64,000 bases of DNA from contig NZ_AP018448.1 of NCBI RefSeq assembly GCF_030294945.1, positions 6,540,001 to 6,604,000 of the forward strand, in the 5' to 3' direction. The notes under the pieces were generated by a model. It saw nothing but the letters and a program-made list of their open reading frames with translations, did no database searches and was not told the DNA's origin. This DNA comes from Streptomyces graminofaciens (GTDB lineage Bacteria > Actinomycetota > Actinomycetes > Streptomycetales > Streptomycetaceae). A program made the translations under genes and the position numbers. This document shows, in pieces, positions 48,993 through 53,384 of this stretch; within the stretch, counting starts at the first letter, position 1, and every line of letters starts with the position of its first letter.

Positions 48993-49076
48993 CCGCCGTC
49001 TCCTGACTCCCGGATACGTACGGAAGGGACGTACGCCGCGTTCAGGGGCGCGGGGAACTGCGCGAGCAATCGCAAC

Positions 49077-49132
49077 GCACCCGCACCCGCACCCGCACCC
49101 GCACCCGCACCCGCACCCGCACCCGCACCCGC
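49077..49132. repeat. Hexanucleotide (CGCACC)n microsatellite
   Basis: About nine perfect copies of a 6-bp unit in the gap between the copper gene and the acylase fusion. Just upstream, 49043-49065 is an exact copy of the 23-base element that forms the hairpin at 53436-53513. Confidence 0.9.
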
Positions 49133-49180
49133 CACCACACCCTCACCCTCATCCGCCGAGCTCCAAAAGACCCCGGCTCC

Positions 49181-51922
49181 TTAGACCCGCTCCCTCCGCA
49201 GGAACGCCAACCGCGCCCGCTTCTCCGGCAGATACACATCCGGCAGATCGACCTCGGGCAGCACGACCACCGGCCCCTCCTCGAACCCCTGCCGCAAGAA
49301 CCGCTCGACGGCCTTCACATTCCGCTCGTCCGGATCGACGACGACCCTCCGCCGCCCCAGCCCGACCAGCACATACGACGCGAACACCGAGAGCAGCGAG
49401 GACGACCACCCGGCCCGCACGCCCCCCACGCCCGCAGGCGCGAGCAGCACATGCACACCGATGTCCCCGGGCTCGACGTCGTACACCTCACCGACCCGGT
49501 CCGCCTCCGGCTCGTACGTCTGCAAGAGCCCGACGGGCTCCCCGTCCAGCACCGCGAGAAACGCATGGTGCGTATCGAGCGTGTCCAGATGGGCGTAGAC
49601 CTCCGCGACCTCCTCCTTCGTGAGCCCGTTCATGCCCCAGAACTCGGCACGAGGTTCCCGAACCCACGCGTGCACCACCTCCGCGTCGGCCCCGGCATCC
49701 AGCGGCAGCAGCCGCACCACCCCGAACCCGTCGACCACCTGCTCATGAACGGCCACACGCGCGGCGTACCCCCCGGCTCCCCCCGGTTCGTCCCGTTCGA
49801 TCTCGAGCAGGTCCCAGTCGGTGACGACCGGAACGAGTCCCCCCTCGACCCACAGGGGAAGCTGGTCACGGTGATGGGCCGACCCGGGAACCCCCGACGC
49901 CCCGAACGGCACCACCCACCGGCTGTCCTCCCGCCGCCCCAGATCCCAGACGTACCGAGCGGCAGGCCCCCGCGCGCTCAGCTCGGTGATCCCGGGCACG
50001 GCGGACGTGCACAGCACGCAGTCGTGGTCACCGGACAACCCGGGTTCGCCGTACGGCGTGTCACCGAGAGCACGCCAGGGCGCGAGCCGATGCCGGTCCC
50101 CCCACGGCGTACGCCCCTCGCCCTCGGCCGCCACCTCCTCCACCGCCGCCCGCACGACCACGCCCCGGTCGATGCCGAACAACTCCTCCGCCCGCAGCAG
50201 ATGTTCGAGCGCGAACCCGACCCGGACCGTGAGGGAGAGCCAGGGCCGGAAGACCTCGGGGTAGGCAGGCGGAACCGCCAGCGCGCCCCACACGGGCTGC
50301 GCCACCAGCCCCCGTACGACCGCACCCCGCACCGCCGCGTACTCCGCCGCCTCCACACTCCCGGCGTCCATCCGCCGGTCCCAGCCCAGCAGCCGCGCCC
50401 GGAGGGCGGCCGCCGCCGGGGTCAGATCGTCGAGGGCGGCCAGGTGGTCCAACAGCGGCCCGGCGGACGCCAGATGCGTGTCCATGTGGATGGCGGCCAT
50501 GTCCCCCGCCGACCACACCCGCTTCTCACCCAGCAGCTCCCGGATCCGGTCGGCGCGGTGCGGCGGCGCGAACTCCACGCCCAGCGGGCTCGCCGGACCC
50601 CGCTGGTTGGCCATGACGGCGACCCCGTCCTCGACCATGCCGTACGGCGTCTCGTGCCAGCCCTCCCACTCGTGGCCCGGCACCCACGCGTCCACGATCC
50701 GCGTCCGGTTGGCCTCGCCGCGCACCGGCACCCGGCCCGCCACGCGGTGCAGCAGCCCGCCCCGGGTGTCGGCGGCCTGGACGACGTTCACGGGCTCGGC
50801 CCACCGGTCGAACGCCCGGTCCACATCGCCCACTACACGTGCCCGGAGGAGAGGGAGCAGGGCGCTGAGGCCGAGGTCCCCGGTGACGCGCGGCGGGTAA
50901 CGAAGGCTGATGGGACCGGGGCCCTCCGTCGTGACGCCACCGATGACGACCGGTCCGCGGGGAGTCTCGACCACCTCCACCTCGACCGGATCCCCACCCG
51001 CGACCTCGACCGTCTCCACATGCCGACGGGCGGCCCGCCACTCCCCGTCCGGGTCGAGCGCCTCGACGCCCCCCTCGGCATCGGTGCGACGCAGCCGCTC
51101 CCGGTAGAGGTCCTGGTAGTCGGCCATGGCGTTGGTGATCGCCCAGGCGACCGTCCCCGTGTGACCGAAGTGCGCGATGCCCGGCAGCCCCGGCACCGCC
51201 AGCCCCACCACGTCGAACTCGTCGCACGACAGCCGGATCTGCTGGTACACCCCCGGCTCCTCGATGAACCGGTGCGGATCCCCCGCGATCACCGCCTGCC
51301 CGGTGTCCGTACGGTCCCCGCCGACCAGCCATCCGTTGCTGCCGGAGGTCGCGGGCCCGTCGGTGGCGAAGAGGCCGACCGCGTCGGCGCCGAGATGCCG
51401 TACGGCCTCCTCGCGCCAGAGCTTCGCGGGGAACCCGGCGAAGAGGATGTGTGTGGCCAGCCAGACCCCGAGCGGGTGCCAGGGCTCCCAGCGCCCGGGC
51501 GCGAGCCCGACACGCGCGAACTCTGGCGTGCGCCCGGCGCCCTCCCCGAGCCCTTCGTTGACCCCCTCGACGTACGCCCGGACCCAGTCGGCGGTCTCCG
51601 GATCCCGTCGCTCCAGCTCGGCGAAGCAGCGTCTGGCGGTGTCGTCGAGTCTGGCCCGTCTCGCGAACAGGTCCCAGCCGAGGGCCTCGGTACCGAGGAA
51701 GGCGGCCGAGGTGCCCTGGGCACGATGGCGTTCGACCTCCAGCTGCCAGGCGCGGTCGAGCGCGGTGACCCGGCCCTGGGCACGGGCGAGCGCGTGGGCG
51801 TCGGCGGCGCGGAGGTGGGGGATGCCCCAGGCGTCCCGGTAGGTCCCGTGCGCGGGGTGTGCGGGACTTTCCGGATGTGCCGGGCGTACGCCGTAGCGGT
51901 TCTCAGTGCTCGCAGTGCTCAT
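49181..51922 (-). CDS. Penicillin acylase fused to a siderophore-type N-acyltransferase (GNAT)
   Basis: 913 residues. Residues 1-725 form an Ntn-hydrolase of the penicillin acylase family: the beta-subunit nucleophile is Ser195 in TSGSNGWLVGG, followed by AGDPHRFIEEPGVYQQIRLS and the GLPGIAHFGHTGTVAWAITN segment. No signal peptide is visible, so it is probably cytoplasmic, unlike secreted acylases. Residues 735-913 are a GNAT domain of the IucB/MbtK class: EFWGMNGLTKEEV, AVLDGEPVGLLQTYE, YDVEPGDIGVHVLLAP. It acylates hydroxamate amines in siderophore assembly. An iron box 39 bases upstream ties it to iron starvation. It may trim and rebuild acyl groups on siderophores; that is inference. Confidence 0.87.
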   Translation of the reverse strand: MSTASTENRYGVRPAHPESPAHPAHGTYRDAWGIPHLRAADAHALARAQGRVTALDRAWQLEVERHRAQGTSAAFLGTEALGWDLFARRARLDDTARRCFAELERRDPETADWVRAYVEGVNEGLGEGAGRTPEFARVGLAPGRWEPWHPLGVWLATHILFAGFPAKLWREEAVRHLGADAVGLFATDGPATSGSNGWLVGGDRTDTGQAVIAGDPHRFIEEPGVYQQIRLSCDEFDVVGLAVPGLPGIAHFGHTGTVAWAITNAMADYQDLYRERLRRTDAEGGVEALDPDGEWRAARRHVETVEVAGGDPVEVEVVETPRGPVVIGGVTTEGPGPISLRYPPRVTGDLGLSALLPLLRARVVGDVDRAFDRWAEPVNVVQAADTRGGLLHRVAGRVPVRGEANRTRIVDAWVPGHEWEGWHETPYGMVEDGVAVMANQRGPASPLGVEFAPPHRADRIRELLGEKRVWSAGDMAAIHMDTHLASAGPLLDHLAALDDLTPAAAALRARLLGWDRRMDAGSVEAAEYAAVRGAVVRGLVAQPVWGALAVPPAYPEVFRPWLSLTVRVGFALEHLLRAEELFGIDRGVVVRAAVEEVAAEGEGRTPWGDRHRLAPWRALGDTPYGEPGLSGDHDCVLCTSAVPGITELSARGPAARYVWDLGRREDSRWVVPFGASGVPGSAHHRDQLPLWVEGGLVPVVTDWDLLEIERDEPGGAGGYAARVAVHEQVVDGFGVVRLLPLDAGADAEVVHAWVREPRAEFWGMNGLTKEEVAEVYAHLDTLDTHHAFLAVLDGEPVGLLQTYEPEADRVGEVYDVEPGDIGVHVLLAPAGVGGVRAGWSSSLLSVFASYVLVGLGRRRVVVDPDERNVKAVERFLRQGFEEGPVVVLPEVDLPDVYLPEKRARLAFLRRERV

Positions 51923-51960
51923 TGCCGTGCCTGTGCCTGTTCCTGTCCGCGACCTGTGAT

Positions 51961-51979
51961 TTAGGTTAGCCTCACCTAA
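51961..51979. promoter_or_regulatory. Iron box (DmdR1/IdeR operator)
   Basis: TTAGGTTAGCCTCACCTAA differs at one base from the actinobacterial iron box TTAGGTTAGGCTCACCTAA. It is centred between the divergent acylase fusion (ATG 51922) and the siderophore-interacting protein (ATG 52020), about 40 bases from each, so both should be repressed by Fe-DmdR1. Confidence 0.92.
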
Positions 51980-52019
51980 GCAACCCGTGGTGGAAGCGTA
52001 CGTGAAGGGTGAAGAGGAC

Positions 52020-52724
52020 ATGGGGCAGGGGCACGGCTGGGAGGGAGCGGTCCTCAGACTGCTGCGCGCGAAGGACTTCGTGTGCACGGTGACCGGCGCC
52101 GAGGACGTCACCCCGCACTACCGGCGGCTGCACCTCACCGACGGCGGCATGCTCGCCACCACCGGGGTCCATCCGACGATGTGGGTCCGCCTCTGGTTCT
52201 CCGACGCGGGCAAGCCGCACCAGCGGGCGTACACCCTGGTCGACCCGGACCCGGCGGCCGGCACCTTCAGCCTGGAGTTCGCCCTCCACGAGGGGCGGGC
52301 CGGCGACTGGGCGAGGACGGCGAAGCCGGGCGACACGATCGAGGCGACGGTCCACGGCACGGGTTTCGAGCGCCCCGACCCGGAGCCCACCCACGTCTTC
52401 GCGATCGGCGACCCGGCCTCGCTCCCCGCCGTCAACTCCCTGCTGGAAGCGCTGGACTCGTCGCCGGCGACGATCTGGTTCGAGGGCGGCACCGACGGCC
52501 TCCCCTTCCGCACCGACCCCGCCCGCCACGAGATCCGCGCCGGCGACCGCCTCGTCGCCCGGGTGAAGGCGGACCTCCCCGACCTGCTGAAGGCCCACCC
52601 GGACGCCTACGTCTGGATCGCCTGCGACACCGCCACGACCCGCACCCTCTCCGCCTACGTCCGCAAGGAACTGGGCGTCCCGAAGCAGCGCCTGCACGCG
52701 CTGGGGTACTGGCGGCCGGCCTGA
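52020..52724 (+). CDS. Siderophore-interacting protein (ferric reductase, ViuB/SIP family)
   Basis: 234 residues. FAD-binding motif RAYTLVDPDPAAGTFSLEFALH (R-x-Y-T), the HGTGF turn, and an NAD(P)-binding SIP domain with FAIGDPASLPAVNSLLEAL and YVWIACDTATTRTLSAYVRK. It reduces ferric siderophores in the cytoplasm to release iron. I prefer ATG 52020 (GAAGAGG upstream) over a GTG at 51987 that lies 8 bases from the iron box. It forms a divergent iron-regulated pair with the acylase fusion. Confidence 0.92.
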   Translation: MGQGHGWEGAVLRLLRAKDFVCTVTGAEDVTPHYRRLHLTDGGMLATTGVHPTMWVRLWFSDAGKPHQRAYTLVDPDPAAGTFSLEFALHEGRAGDWARTAKPGDTIEATVHGTGFERPDPEPTHVFAIGDPASLPAVNSLLEALDSSPATIWFEGGTDGLPFRTDPARHEIRAGDRLVARVKADLPDLLKAHPDAYVWIACDTATTRTLSAYVRKELGVPKQRLHALGYWRPA

Positions 52725-52790: not shown

Positions 52791-53384
52791 ATGGACGTCA
52801 CCCTTCACCTCGCCCAGGACCCCGAGGCCGACGAACTCCTCGGGCGCTCGCCGCTCGCCGCGCTCGTCGGGATGCTGCTGGACCAGCAGGTGCCGATGGA
52901 GTGGGCGTTCAAGGGGCCGCGCACCATCGCGGACCGGCTCGGCGCGGACGACCTGGACGCGCACGAGATCGCCGCGCAGGACCCGGAGGCCTTCGCCGCG
53001 CTGCTCTCCGAGAAGCCGGCCGTCCACCGCTACCCCGGTTCGATGGCCAAGCGCGTCCAGCAGCTCTGCCAGTACCTCGTCGAGCACTACGACGGAAACG
53101 CCGAGCTGGTCTGGAAGAGCGTCGCCGACGGCCGCGAACTCCGCCGCCGCCTGGAGGAACTCCCCGGCTTCGGCAGACAGAAGGCCCAGATCTTCCTGGC
53201 CCTGCTCGGCAAACAACTCGGCGTACAGCCGGAGGGCTGGCGGGAGGCCGCGGGCGCCTACGGCGAACCGGAGTCCTTCCGCTCGGTCGCCGACATCACG
53301 GGCCCTGACTCCTTGGCGAAGGTCCGTGCCCACAAGCAGGAGATGAAGGCGGCGGCGAAGGCGGCGAAGGCCTCCGGCAAGTAG
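52791..53384 (+). CDS. HhH-GPD-type base excision DNA repair protein
   Basis: 197 residues, small member of the endonuclease III/AlkA-like superfamily. The helix-hairpin-helix is in RRRLEELPGFGRQKAQIFLALL; upstream ALVGMLLDQQVPMEWAFKGP is the conserved pocket segment. No Fe-S cysteine cluster. The C-terminus is a Lys/Ala-rich helix (KAAAKAAKASGK). It lies 66 bases after the siderophore-interacting gene but is unlikely to share function with it. Confidence 0.88.
   Translation: MDVTLHLAQDPEADELLGRSPLAALVGMLLDQQVPMEWAFKGPRTIADRLGADDLDAHEIAAQDPEAFAALLSEKPAVHRYPGSMAKRVQQLCQYLVEHYDGNAELVWKSVADGRELRRRLEELPGFGRQKAQIFLALLGKQLGVQPEGWREAAGAYGEPESFRSVADITGPDSLAKVRAHKQEMKAAAKAAKASGK

Follow-up and report, generated by a model that had tools for sequence, protein, structure and literature searches.

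A fused desG-desH gene beside an iron box in Streptomyces graminofaciens and its probable role in favouring desferrioxamine B over desferrioxamine E

Streptomyces produces the iron-chelating drug desferrioxamine B (DFOB), and before the discovery of desGH there was no explanation of how cells choose it over desferrioxamine E (DFOE). A role for desG, in phenylacetyl-capped desferrioxamines, was reportedly first proposed by Cruz-Morales in 2017. According to a 2025 study (PMC12161575), the desJGH locus of S. coelicolor, in which desG and desH are SCO4049 and SCO4050, is controlled by DmdR1. Loss of desG lowered DFOB about 1000-fold and loss of desH about 16-fold, with DFOE increased in both cases, and these effects were backed by knock-outs and complementation. 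Its authors proposed that DesG desuccinylates N-hydroxy-N-succinylcadaverine and that DesH acetylates the freed hydroxylamine; succinyl would thus be replaced by acetyl on the monomer, before assembly by DesD, and this exchange would set the DFOB/DFOE ratio. Considering that DesC also acetylates N-hydroxycadaverine in vitro and that the desH mutant retains some DFOB, DesH is not strictly required (PMC12161575). We found no in vitro proof of the DesG or DesH reaction in the literature. Fused desGH genes have already been named in S. atratus and in Micrococcus spp. CH3 and CH7 (PMC12161575), so that a fusion as such is not new. What we add are counts of the co-occurrence of DesG and DesD, the fraction of fused genes, a tree of fusion and split states, and the nearest named solved acylases.

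The window, a 64-kb stretch of the Streptomyces graminofaciens genome, carries both genes in one open frame (table 1). The first-pass annotation had described a penicillin-acylase-type hydrolase joined in one chain to an IucB/MbtK-type GNAT domain, and Pfam confirmed this: the 913-aa chain matched Penicil_amidase (PF01804; 513.9 bits) and, at residues 744-886, Acetyltransf_8 (PF13523; 138.1 bits against a gathering cut-off of 27). The rule by which the published work recognizes desGH, namely PF01804 and PF13523 within 1 kb (PMC12161575), therefore applies to a single protein here. When fused and split junctions were compared, the in-frame ATG of a former separate desH start was absent from the linker. 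The fusion is a real observation, and one that is largely already explained, in outline, by the published work on desG and desH.

Table 1. Features of the fused desGH locus (positions within the window).
Feature	Position	Strand	Basis or remark
Fused desGH gene, 913 codons plus stop	49181..51922	-	Open frame; PF01804 and PF13523
DesG-type Ntn acylase half, residues 1-712	49787..51922	-	PF01804 at residues 28-704; glutaryl-7-ACA acylase and D-succinylase are the closest solved chains that bear a name
Codon of Ser195, predicted to be the nucleophile and the site of cleavage	51338..51340	-	Aligned to beta-chain residue 1
Linker, residues 713-735	49718..49786	-	Junction comparison
DesH-type GNAT half, residues 736-913	49184..49717	-	
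Iron box (DmdR1/IdeR-type) between two divergent genes	51961..51979	.	1 mismatch, sequence only
desJ-type siderophore-interacting reductase	52020..52724	+	SIP and FAD_binding_9; alternative GTG start at 51987
HhH-GPD protein, counterpart of SCO4047, synteny marker	52791..53384	+	PF00730, 26.8 bits (cut-off 26.2)

Between the fused gene and the divergent reductase, a sequence scan found a site one mismatch away from TTAGGTTAGGCTAACCTAA, which we take to be the consensus palindrome of the iron box. No comparable site occurred in 100 shuffles of the window, and the whole 11.6-Mb genome contained only two sites this good, the other lying upstream of a desA-like gene; with the reversed pattern, the genome yielded none. 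A chance match was ruled out by these two controls, and the earlier claim of a near-perfect iron box common to the fusion and the reductase was upheld. Iron regulation of the fusion in S. graminofaciens is suggested by the site itself. The divergent reductase contains SIP (PF04954) and FAD_binding_9 (PF08021), as expected of desJ, and probably starts at the ATG rather than at the alternative GTG. An HhH-GPD neighbour is also named at the S. coelicolor locus (PMC12161575), and the SIP and HhH-GPD neighbours of the fusion match the gene order given for SCO4047-4050. Among 80 related named loci, the best-scoring of a longer list and hence no sample for frequencies, 67 had a divergent copy of the reductase and 64 the HhH-GPD neighbour. 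The desABCD genes that belong with a desJGH locus have their likeness elsewhere in the genome, where proteins with PF00282, PF13434, PF13523, and PF04183 are encoded in a row.

Ser195, which the first-pass annotation had named as the nucleophile of the acylase, fell, in the alignment with solved relatives, on the first residue of their mature beta chains (SNGW vs. SNNW/SNAW) and was Ser in 100 of 101 alignment rows, the remaining row having a gap. Together with the pocket residues H217 (100 rows) and N439 (101 rows), Ser195 gives the set expected of a MEROPS S45 Ntn hydrolase, and the acylase half presumably cleaves itself before Ser195. Roughly the first 70 residues held no hydrophobic N-terminal stretch (the highest Kyte-Doolittle mean over 15 residues was 0.25); therefore the cytoplasmic location that had been called apparent is plausible for the fusion protein. 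Among solved relatives that bear a name, glutaryl-7-ACA acylase and D-succinylase came nearest by sequence, and they also headed the fold matches in structure searches. The nearest solved chain overall by sequence, 35sz, is named only "Penicillin acylase family protein" and was not among the structure-search matches listed for this half (structure library to April 2026). Weaker matches included penicillin G acylases, PvdQ, and MacQ, a lactone acylase, and so the substrate cannot be read from the fold by itself. Identity with PvdQ was rejected, as NCBIfam NF051460 scored 34.2 bits against an equivalog cut-off of 950.

For the N176 cephalosporin acylase, simulations showed R24, Y32, H57, and N242 stabilising the productive pose of the substrate (PMC6712217). 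By hand mapping on the alignment, these residues correspond to R218, Y226, H251, and N439 of the fusion, each kept in all 101 rows or in all but one. The pocket differs from that of N176 in that H70 is replaced by N264, H178 by N379, and Y467 by R651, and a glutaryl-contacting Arg described for another acylase is His in the fusion. Structure prediction, proposed earlier as a check, gave a model (mean pLDDT 73.4) that is weak around the active site of the acylase (pLDDT <50 at residues 187-195 and 216-267); therefore the model says nothing on substrate fit, channelling, or the distance between the two sites.

In sequence, the GNAT half most resembled DfoC and NcdE, which are enzymes of hydroxamate siderophore pathways. 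Aminoglycoside acetyltransferases matched it weakly, below the cut-off. The conserved His and Asp of PF13523 were found as His824 and Asp865, each kept in 100 of 101 rows, and we take them to be the catalytic residues. Its acyl donor and hydroxylamine acceptor would be those of the published proposal.

The distribution of these genes was investigated in a draw of 199 Streptomyces genomes, from which all frequencies given here were taken. All 113 genomes with a strong DesG also had DesD, compared with 42 of the 86 others, a co-occurrence whose Fisher test ignores the relatedness of the genomes. The fused gene was found in 18 of 108 resolved genomes, where local open frames served to call a gene split. 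Some genes in draft assemblies seem broken, with acylase frames 855-1311 bases long in four of the genomes. A wide protein search, which served for an alignment only, gave 3731 proteins at E <= 1e-100; many of the 120 matches listed contained both Pfam domains. The 101-row tree, a quick tree with SH-aLRT support only, requires 10 changes between fusion and split, counted without direction. In this tree the fusion of the window groups beside eight split relatives and therefore probably has an origin separate from that of the other fused clades in the sample. Outside Streptomyces, desC, desD, desG, and desH stand in a row in two genomes; in a third, desC and desD are together with fused GH, and in a fourth fused GH lies about 5 kb from desCD. 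In two further relatives desG adjoins desC and desD but has no desH close by; thus DesG is not always paired with a DesH-type GNAT.

This genome shows the two domains with their expected catalytic residues, an iron box, the neighbouring genes, and an operon resembling desABCD. How either gene shifts the DFOB/DFOE balance has been established by others in S. coelicolor. We therefore consider it very probable that the protein is a DesG-DesH fusion at a DmdR1-controlled desJGH locus, which exchanges the succinyl group of the monomer for acetyl and so favours DFOB rather than DFOE. In low iron, repression at the iron box would be lifted, and DesA, DesB, and DesC would make N-hydroxy-N-succinylcadaverine. 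The DesG half, self-cleaved to expose Ser195, would then hydrolyse the succinyl group, and the DesH half would acetylate the freed hydroxylamine ahead of re-succinylation by DesC. The resulting N-hydroxy-N-acetylcadaverine would serve DesD as a chain end, giving DFOB and not the ring of DFOE. Iron regulation in S. graminofaciens, the substrates of the fusion, its self-cleavage, and the hand-over from one half to the other are what we infer in this scheme.

MbtK-type relatives of the GNAT half accept long acyl groups, and DesH might use fatty or aryl acyl-CoA donors to make other capped desferrioxamines, which is compatible with acetyl use too. Fatty-acyl and aryl caps do occur among desferrioxamine producers, but the product affected in S. 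coelicolor is DFOB, with its acetyl cap, and arylated desferrioxamines are reported not to have been identified there (PMC12161575); we regard such donors as rather unlikely. The first-pass annotation had also proposed an exchange of acyl groups in hydroxamate siderophores, or re-acylation after iron release. The exchange agrees with the genetics of the split genes (PMC12161575), although most likely on the monomer and not on the finished siderophore. Re-acylation, by which the reductase would free the iron, the acylase open the hydroxamate, and the GNAT re-acylate a finished desferrioxamine, fits the chemical class of both halves and the iron box common to the fusion and a reductase-type gene. 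However, DFOB falls and DFOE rises in the desG and desH mutants, as a precursor effect predicts, the desJ mutant has more DFOB, and the exchange proposed in PMC12161575 involves no such recycling; desG, moreover, adjoins the assembly genes desC and desD in other genera. Recycling thus finds no support in the present data and seems quite improbable.

The genome also has six PF04183 matches at about four places, one of them next to a further PF13523 gene near 4.26 Mb, and the fusion could in principle serve one of these NIS siderophores instead of desferrioxamine. Against this, no iron box with <=3 mismatches was found in the 18 kb around 4.26 Mb, strong DesG never occurred without DesD in the draw, and the genes stand in the order reported for S. 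coelicolor (PMC12161575). We consider this the least probable explanation, scarcely to be credited.

Returning to acyl exchange on the monomer, a further and doubtful extension may be offered. The repeated fusions were perhaps selected because N-hydroxycadaverine must be channelled from the site that removes succinyl to the one that adds acetyl before DesC can take it up again; invariant Arg651 (Tyr in the N176 cephalosporin acylase), Arg218, and His251 might read the succinyl carboxylate; and differences at an unlinked desGH locus might account for the production of DFOE by S. globisporus bja209 and of DFOB by strain 4-3, whose desferrioxamine clusters are identical. The repeated fusions are a natural test of whether channelling matters, and single-chain DesGH is a simple protein for studying desuccinylation and re-acetylation in vitro.

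Compared with known systems, the fusion has the Ntn fold and N-terminal Ser in common with glutaryl-7-ACA/cephalosporin acylases (4hsr, 3s8r) and D-succinylase (7eby), and its pocket Arg, Tyr, His, and Asn with the N176 enzyme; differences lie in at least three pocket positions and in the attached GNAT. Its GNAT half resembles DfoC, NcdE, MbtK/Rv1347c, and SidF in its fold and in the conserved counterparts of His824 and Asp865, but unlike them it is joined to an acylase, which is probably the source of its substrate. With DesG and DesH of S. coelicolor, likened by families and by the description of the locus, it shares the two families, the iron-regulated locus, the SIP and HhH-GPD neighbours, and a separate desABCD, although what are two genes there form one chain here. 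The fused DesGH of S. atratus and Micrococcus spp. CH3 and CH7, likened by description, join the same two genes and presumably have the same role.

The first-pass annotation had described a two-domain fusion that shares an iron box with a divergent siderophore gene, and we found this description to be correct: a PF01804 acylase is joined to a PF13523 acyltransferase (table below), the divergent neighbour encodes a siderophore-interacting protein (SIP), and an iron box with one mismatch lies between the two genes. Across the 11.6 Mb genome, one-mismatch boxes were found only here and upstream of a desA-like gene, and the reversed control pattern gave 0 matches.

Features and iron-box-like sites in Streptomyces graminofaciens (window coordinates unless a contig is named)
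Feature	Position	Strand	Remarks
desGH fusion gene	49181-51922	minus	913 residues; PF01804 28-704 + PF13523 744-886
Hexamer repeat	49076-49156		~13.5 copies of CGCACC, between desGH and a CopC/CopD-type gene
Further iron-box-like site	G000:C1:666546		3 mismatches
Further iron-box-like site	G000:C1:9906465		3 mismatches
Further iron-box-like site	G000:C1:11226161		3 mismatches

In S. coelicolor, SCO4048 (a desF paralogue) has been named desJ, SCO4049 (penicillin amidase family) desG and SCO4050 (DesC-like acyltransferase) desH, with SCO4047 as the HhH-GPD gene; desG-desH fusions were named for S. atratus and for Micrococcus spp. CH3 and CH7 and were suggested to keep the intermediate at high local concentration (PMC12161575, PLoS Biol 2025). 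By families and gene order, SIP is followed by HhH-GPD both there and in the window. Because the window locus has the SCO4047-4050 gene set and such fusions have been published, the window gene is a fused DesGH, likened on the same grounds to SCO4049/SCO4050. Both the function of DesGH and its fusion are thus already in print, in outline. According to the same paper, desferrioxamine B (DFOB) drops ~1000-fold in the desG mutant and ~16-fold in the desH mutant, desferrioxamine E (DFOE) rises in both, and complementation restores the phenotype; it was proposed that DesG desuccinylates N-hydroxy-N-succinylcadaverine (HSC) and that DesH acetylates the product. Acyl exchange on finished siderophores, or re-acylation after iron release, had been suggested from the sequence. 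These mutants and their DFOB loss support the kind of reaction, but the stage was probably misplaced, since the published proposal concerns HSC.

The genome also carries a desABCD-like operon (PLP decarboxylase, lysine monooxygenase, PF13523 acyltransferase and IucA/IucC synthetase), which adjoins SIP and binding-protein genes and has two iron-box sites. A second PF13523 + PF04183 pair lies near 4.26 Mb, where no iron box was found in the 18 kb scanned. Six PF04183 (IucA/IucC) matches occur at about four places on the contig, near 1.17, 3.54, 4.26 and 8.23 Mb, and represent several putative NIS siderophore clusters within a single genome.

The enzyme is genuine and well conserved, and its gene has an iron box. 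We sampled 199 Streptomyces genomes, one of them the window's own. DesG matches at E <= 1e-30 occurred in 120, which we divided into a strong class of 113 (best E <= 5.5e-93) and a weak class of 7 (2.7e-73 to 8.7e-31). The assembly synthetase DesD (E <= 1e-180) was present in 155/199 genomes: all 113 with strong DesG, none of the 7 with weak DesG, and 42 of the 86 genomes that lack strong DesG (strong DesG versus DesD, Fisher p 2e-20 in a test that ignores relatedness). The strong class included 18 fused and 90 split genomes, with 5 not assigned to either state (3 contig ends, 2 without a GNAT gene found nearby). An iron box with <=3 mismatches preceded desG in 108 of the 110 strong-DesG genomes with upstream DNA. 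The exceptions were G106 (locus L170), with no box within 400 bases upstream and a best site of 9 mismatches, and G043, where desG follows desD at a distance of ~1.6 kb, both on one contig and one strand. In the 80 named loci, a biased sample of the best-scoring ones (30 fused, 50 split), the box (up to 3 mismatches) was found in 78, a divergent desJ in 67 and HhH-GPD in 64; a control stretch inside the gene had no box at up to 4 mismatches in any of the 80.

In a phylum-wide draw of 396 genomes, 17 had matches at E <= 1e-60; 8 of these 17 were non-Streptomyces, and 7 of the 8 had an IucA/IucC synthetase, the most distant one (G208) being without it. Consecutive desC, desD, desG and desH were found in G447 and G533, desC and desD with fused GH in G458, fused GH on the opposite strand ~5 kb from desCD in G395, and desCD ~9 kb from desG in G488. 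Two genomes of another family of the class, G247 (L143) and G426 (L144), have desC, desD and desG; no desH (PF13523) was found near desG, and another acyltransferase may perform the second step. Gordonia has been reported to carry desG without desH (PMC12161575). Three rows from other genera in the iron-box scan had 5, 9 and 9 mismatches, thus no box at <=3. Judged by gene order, the desG-desCD linkage ties the acylase to predicted desferrioxamine-type assembly, independently of S. coelicolor genetics.

A junction comparison of 110 loci gave 39 fused and 71 split. Of the 71 split loci, 68 have an ATG in the desH frame that overlaps the desG end (as ATGTCTGA in 48), an arrangement that fits translational coupling. 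A tree built from 34 fused and 67 split sequences (101 distinct rows; quick method, SH-aLRT support only) required at least 10 changes between the fused and split states, and well-supported branches force 8 of these. The group that holds the window protein (support 99) otherwise consists of eight split genes, from S. adelaidensis, the S. scabiei group and others. An in-frame ATG within 25 codons before the GNAT match was present in 12/39 fused genes. In L035, L042, L046, L047 and L049 it coincides with the desH start point of split relatives and has a ribosome-site-like stretch ahead, which suggests that the split state came before fusion there; these genes may yield the fusion plus free DesH. 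The window linker has no in-frame ATG of this kind.

DesGH also bears on a puzzle in S. globisporus, where strain bja209 makes DFOE and strain 4-3 makes DFOB from identical desferrioxamine clusters, with the ratio of succinyl-CoA to acetyl-CoA suggested as the cause (PMC12525621). The words desG, amidase and acylase do not occur in the main text of that paper. An open fused gene (L095) is present in S. globisporus 1912-4Crt, and we predict that bja209 and 4-3 differ at the unlinked desGH locus or in its expression.

DfoC and NcdE are the best sequence matches to the GNAT half. In fold it comes nearest to NcdE and 2qml, the latter from an uncharacterised Bacillus protein; SidF, Rv1347c and EryM rank next. 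For the acylase half, the nearest by sequence were 35sz, then glutaryl-7-ACA acylase (4hsr) and D-succinylase; fold searches placed cephalosporin/glutaryl acylases and D-succinylase at the top, whereas MacQ, penicillin G acylases and PvdQ ranked further down in at least one of the two lists. The glutaryl and succinyl amide substrates of these relatives would suit a desuccinylase role, fold being no proof of it. Glutaryl is said to be contacted by Arg255 in a related acylase (PMC8197700); this position, beta57 by our count, is His in DesG and in the N176 cephalosporin acylase. Simulations of the N176 enzyme have R24, Y32, H57 and N242 holding the productive pose (PMC6712217); mapped by hand on the alignment, these residues correspond to R218, Y226, H251 and N439 of the fusion, each kept in at least 100 of the 101 rows. 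Y467 of the N176 enzyme aligns with R651, which is Arg in 101/101 rows and which we infer to be a carboxylate contact.
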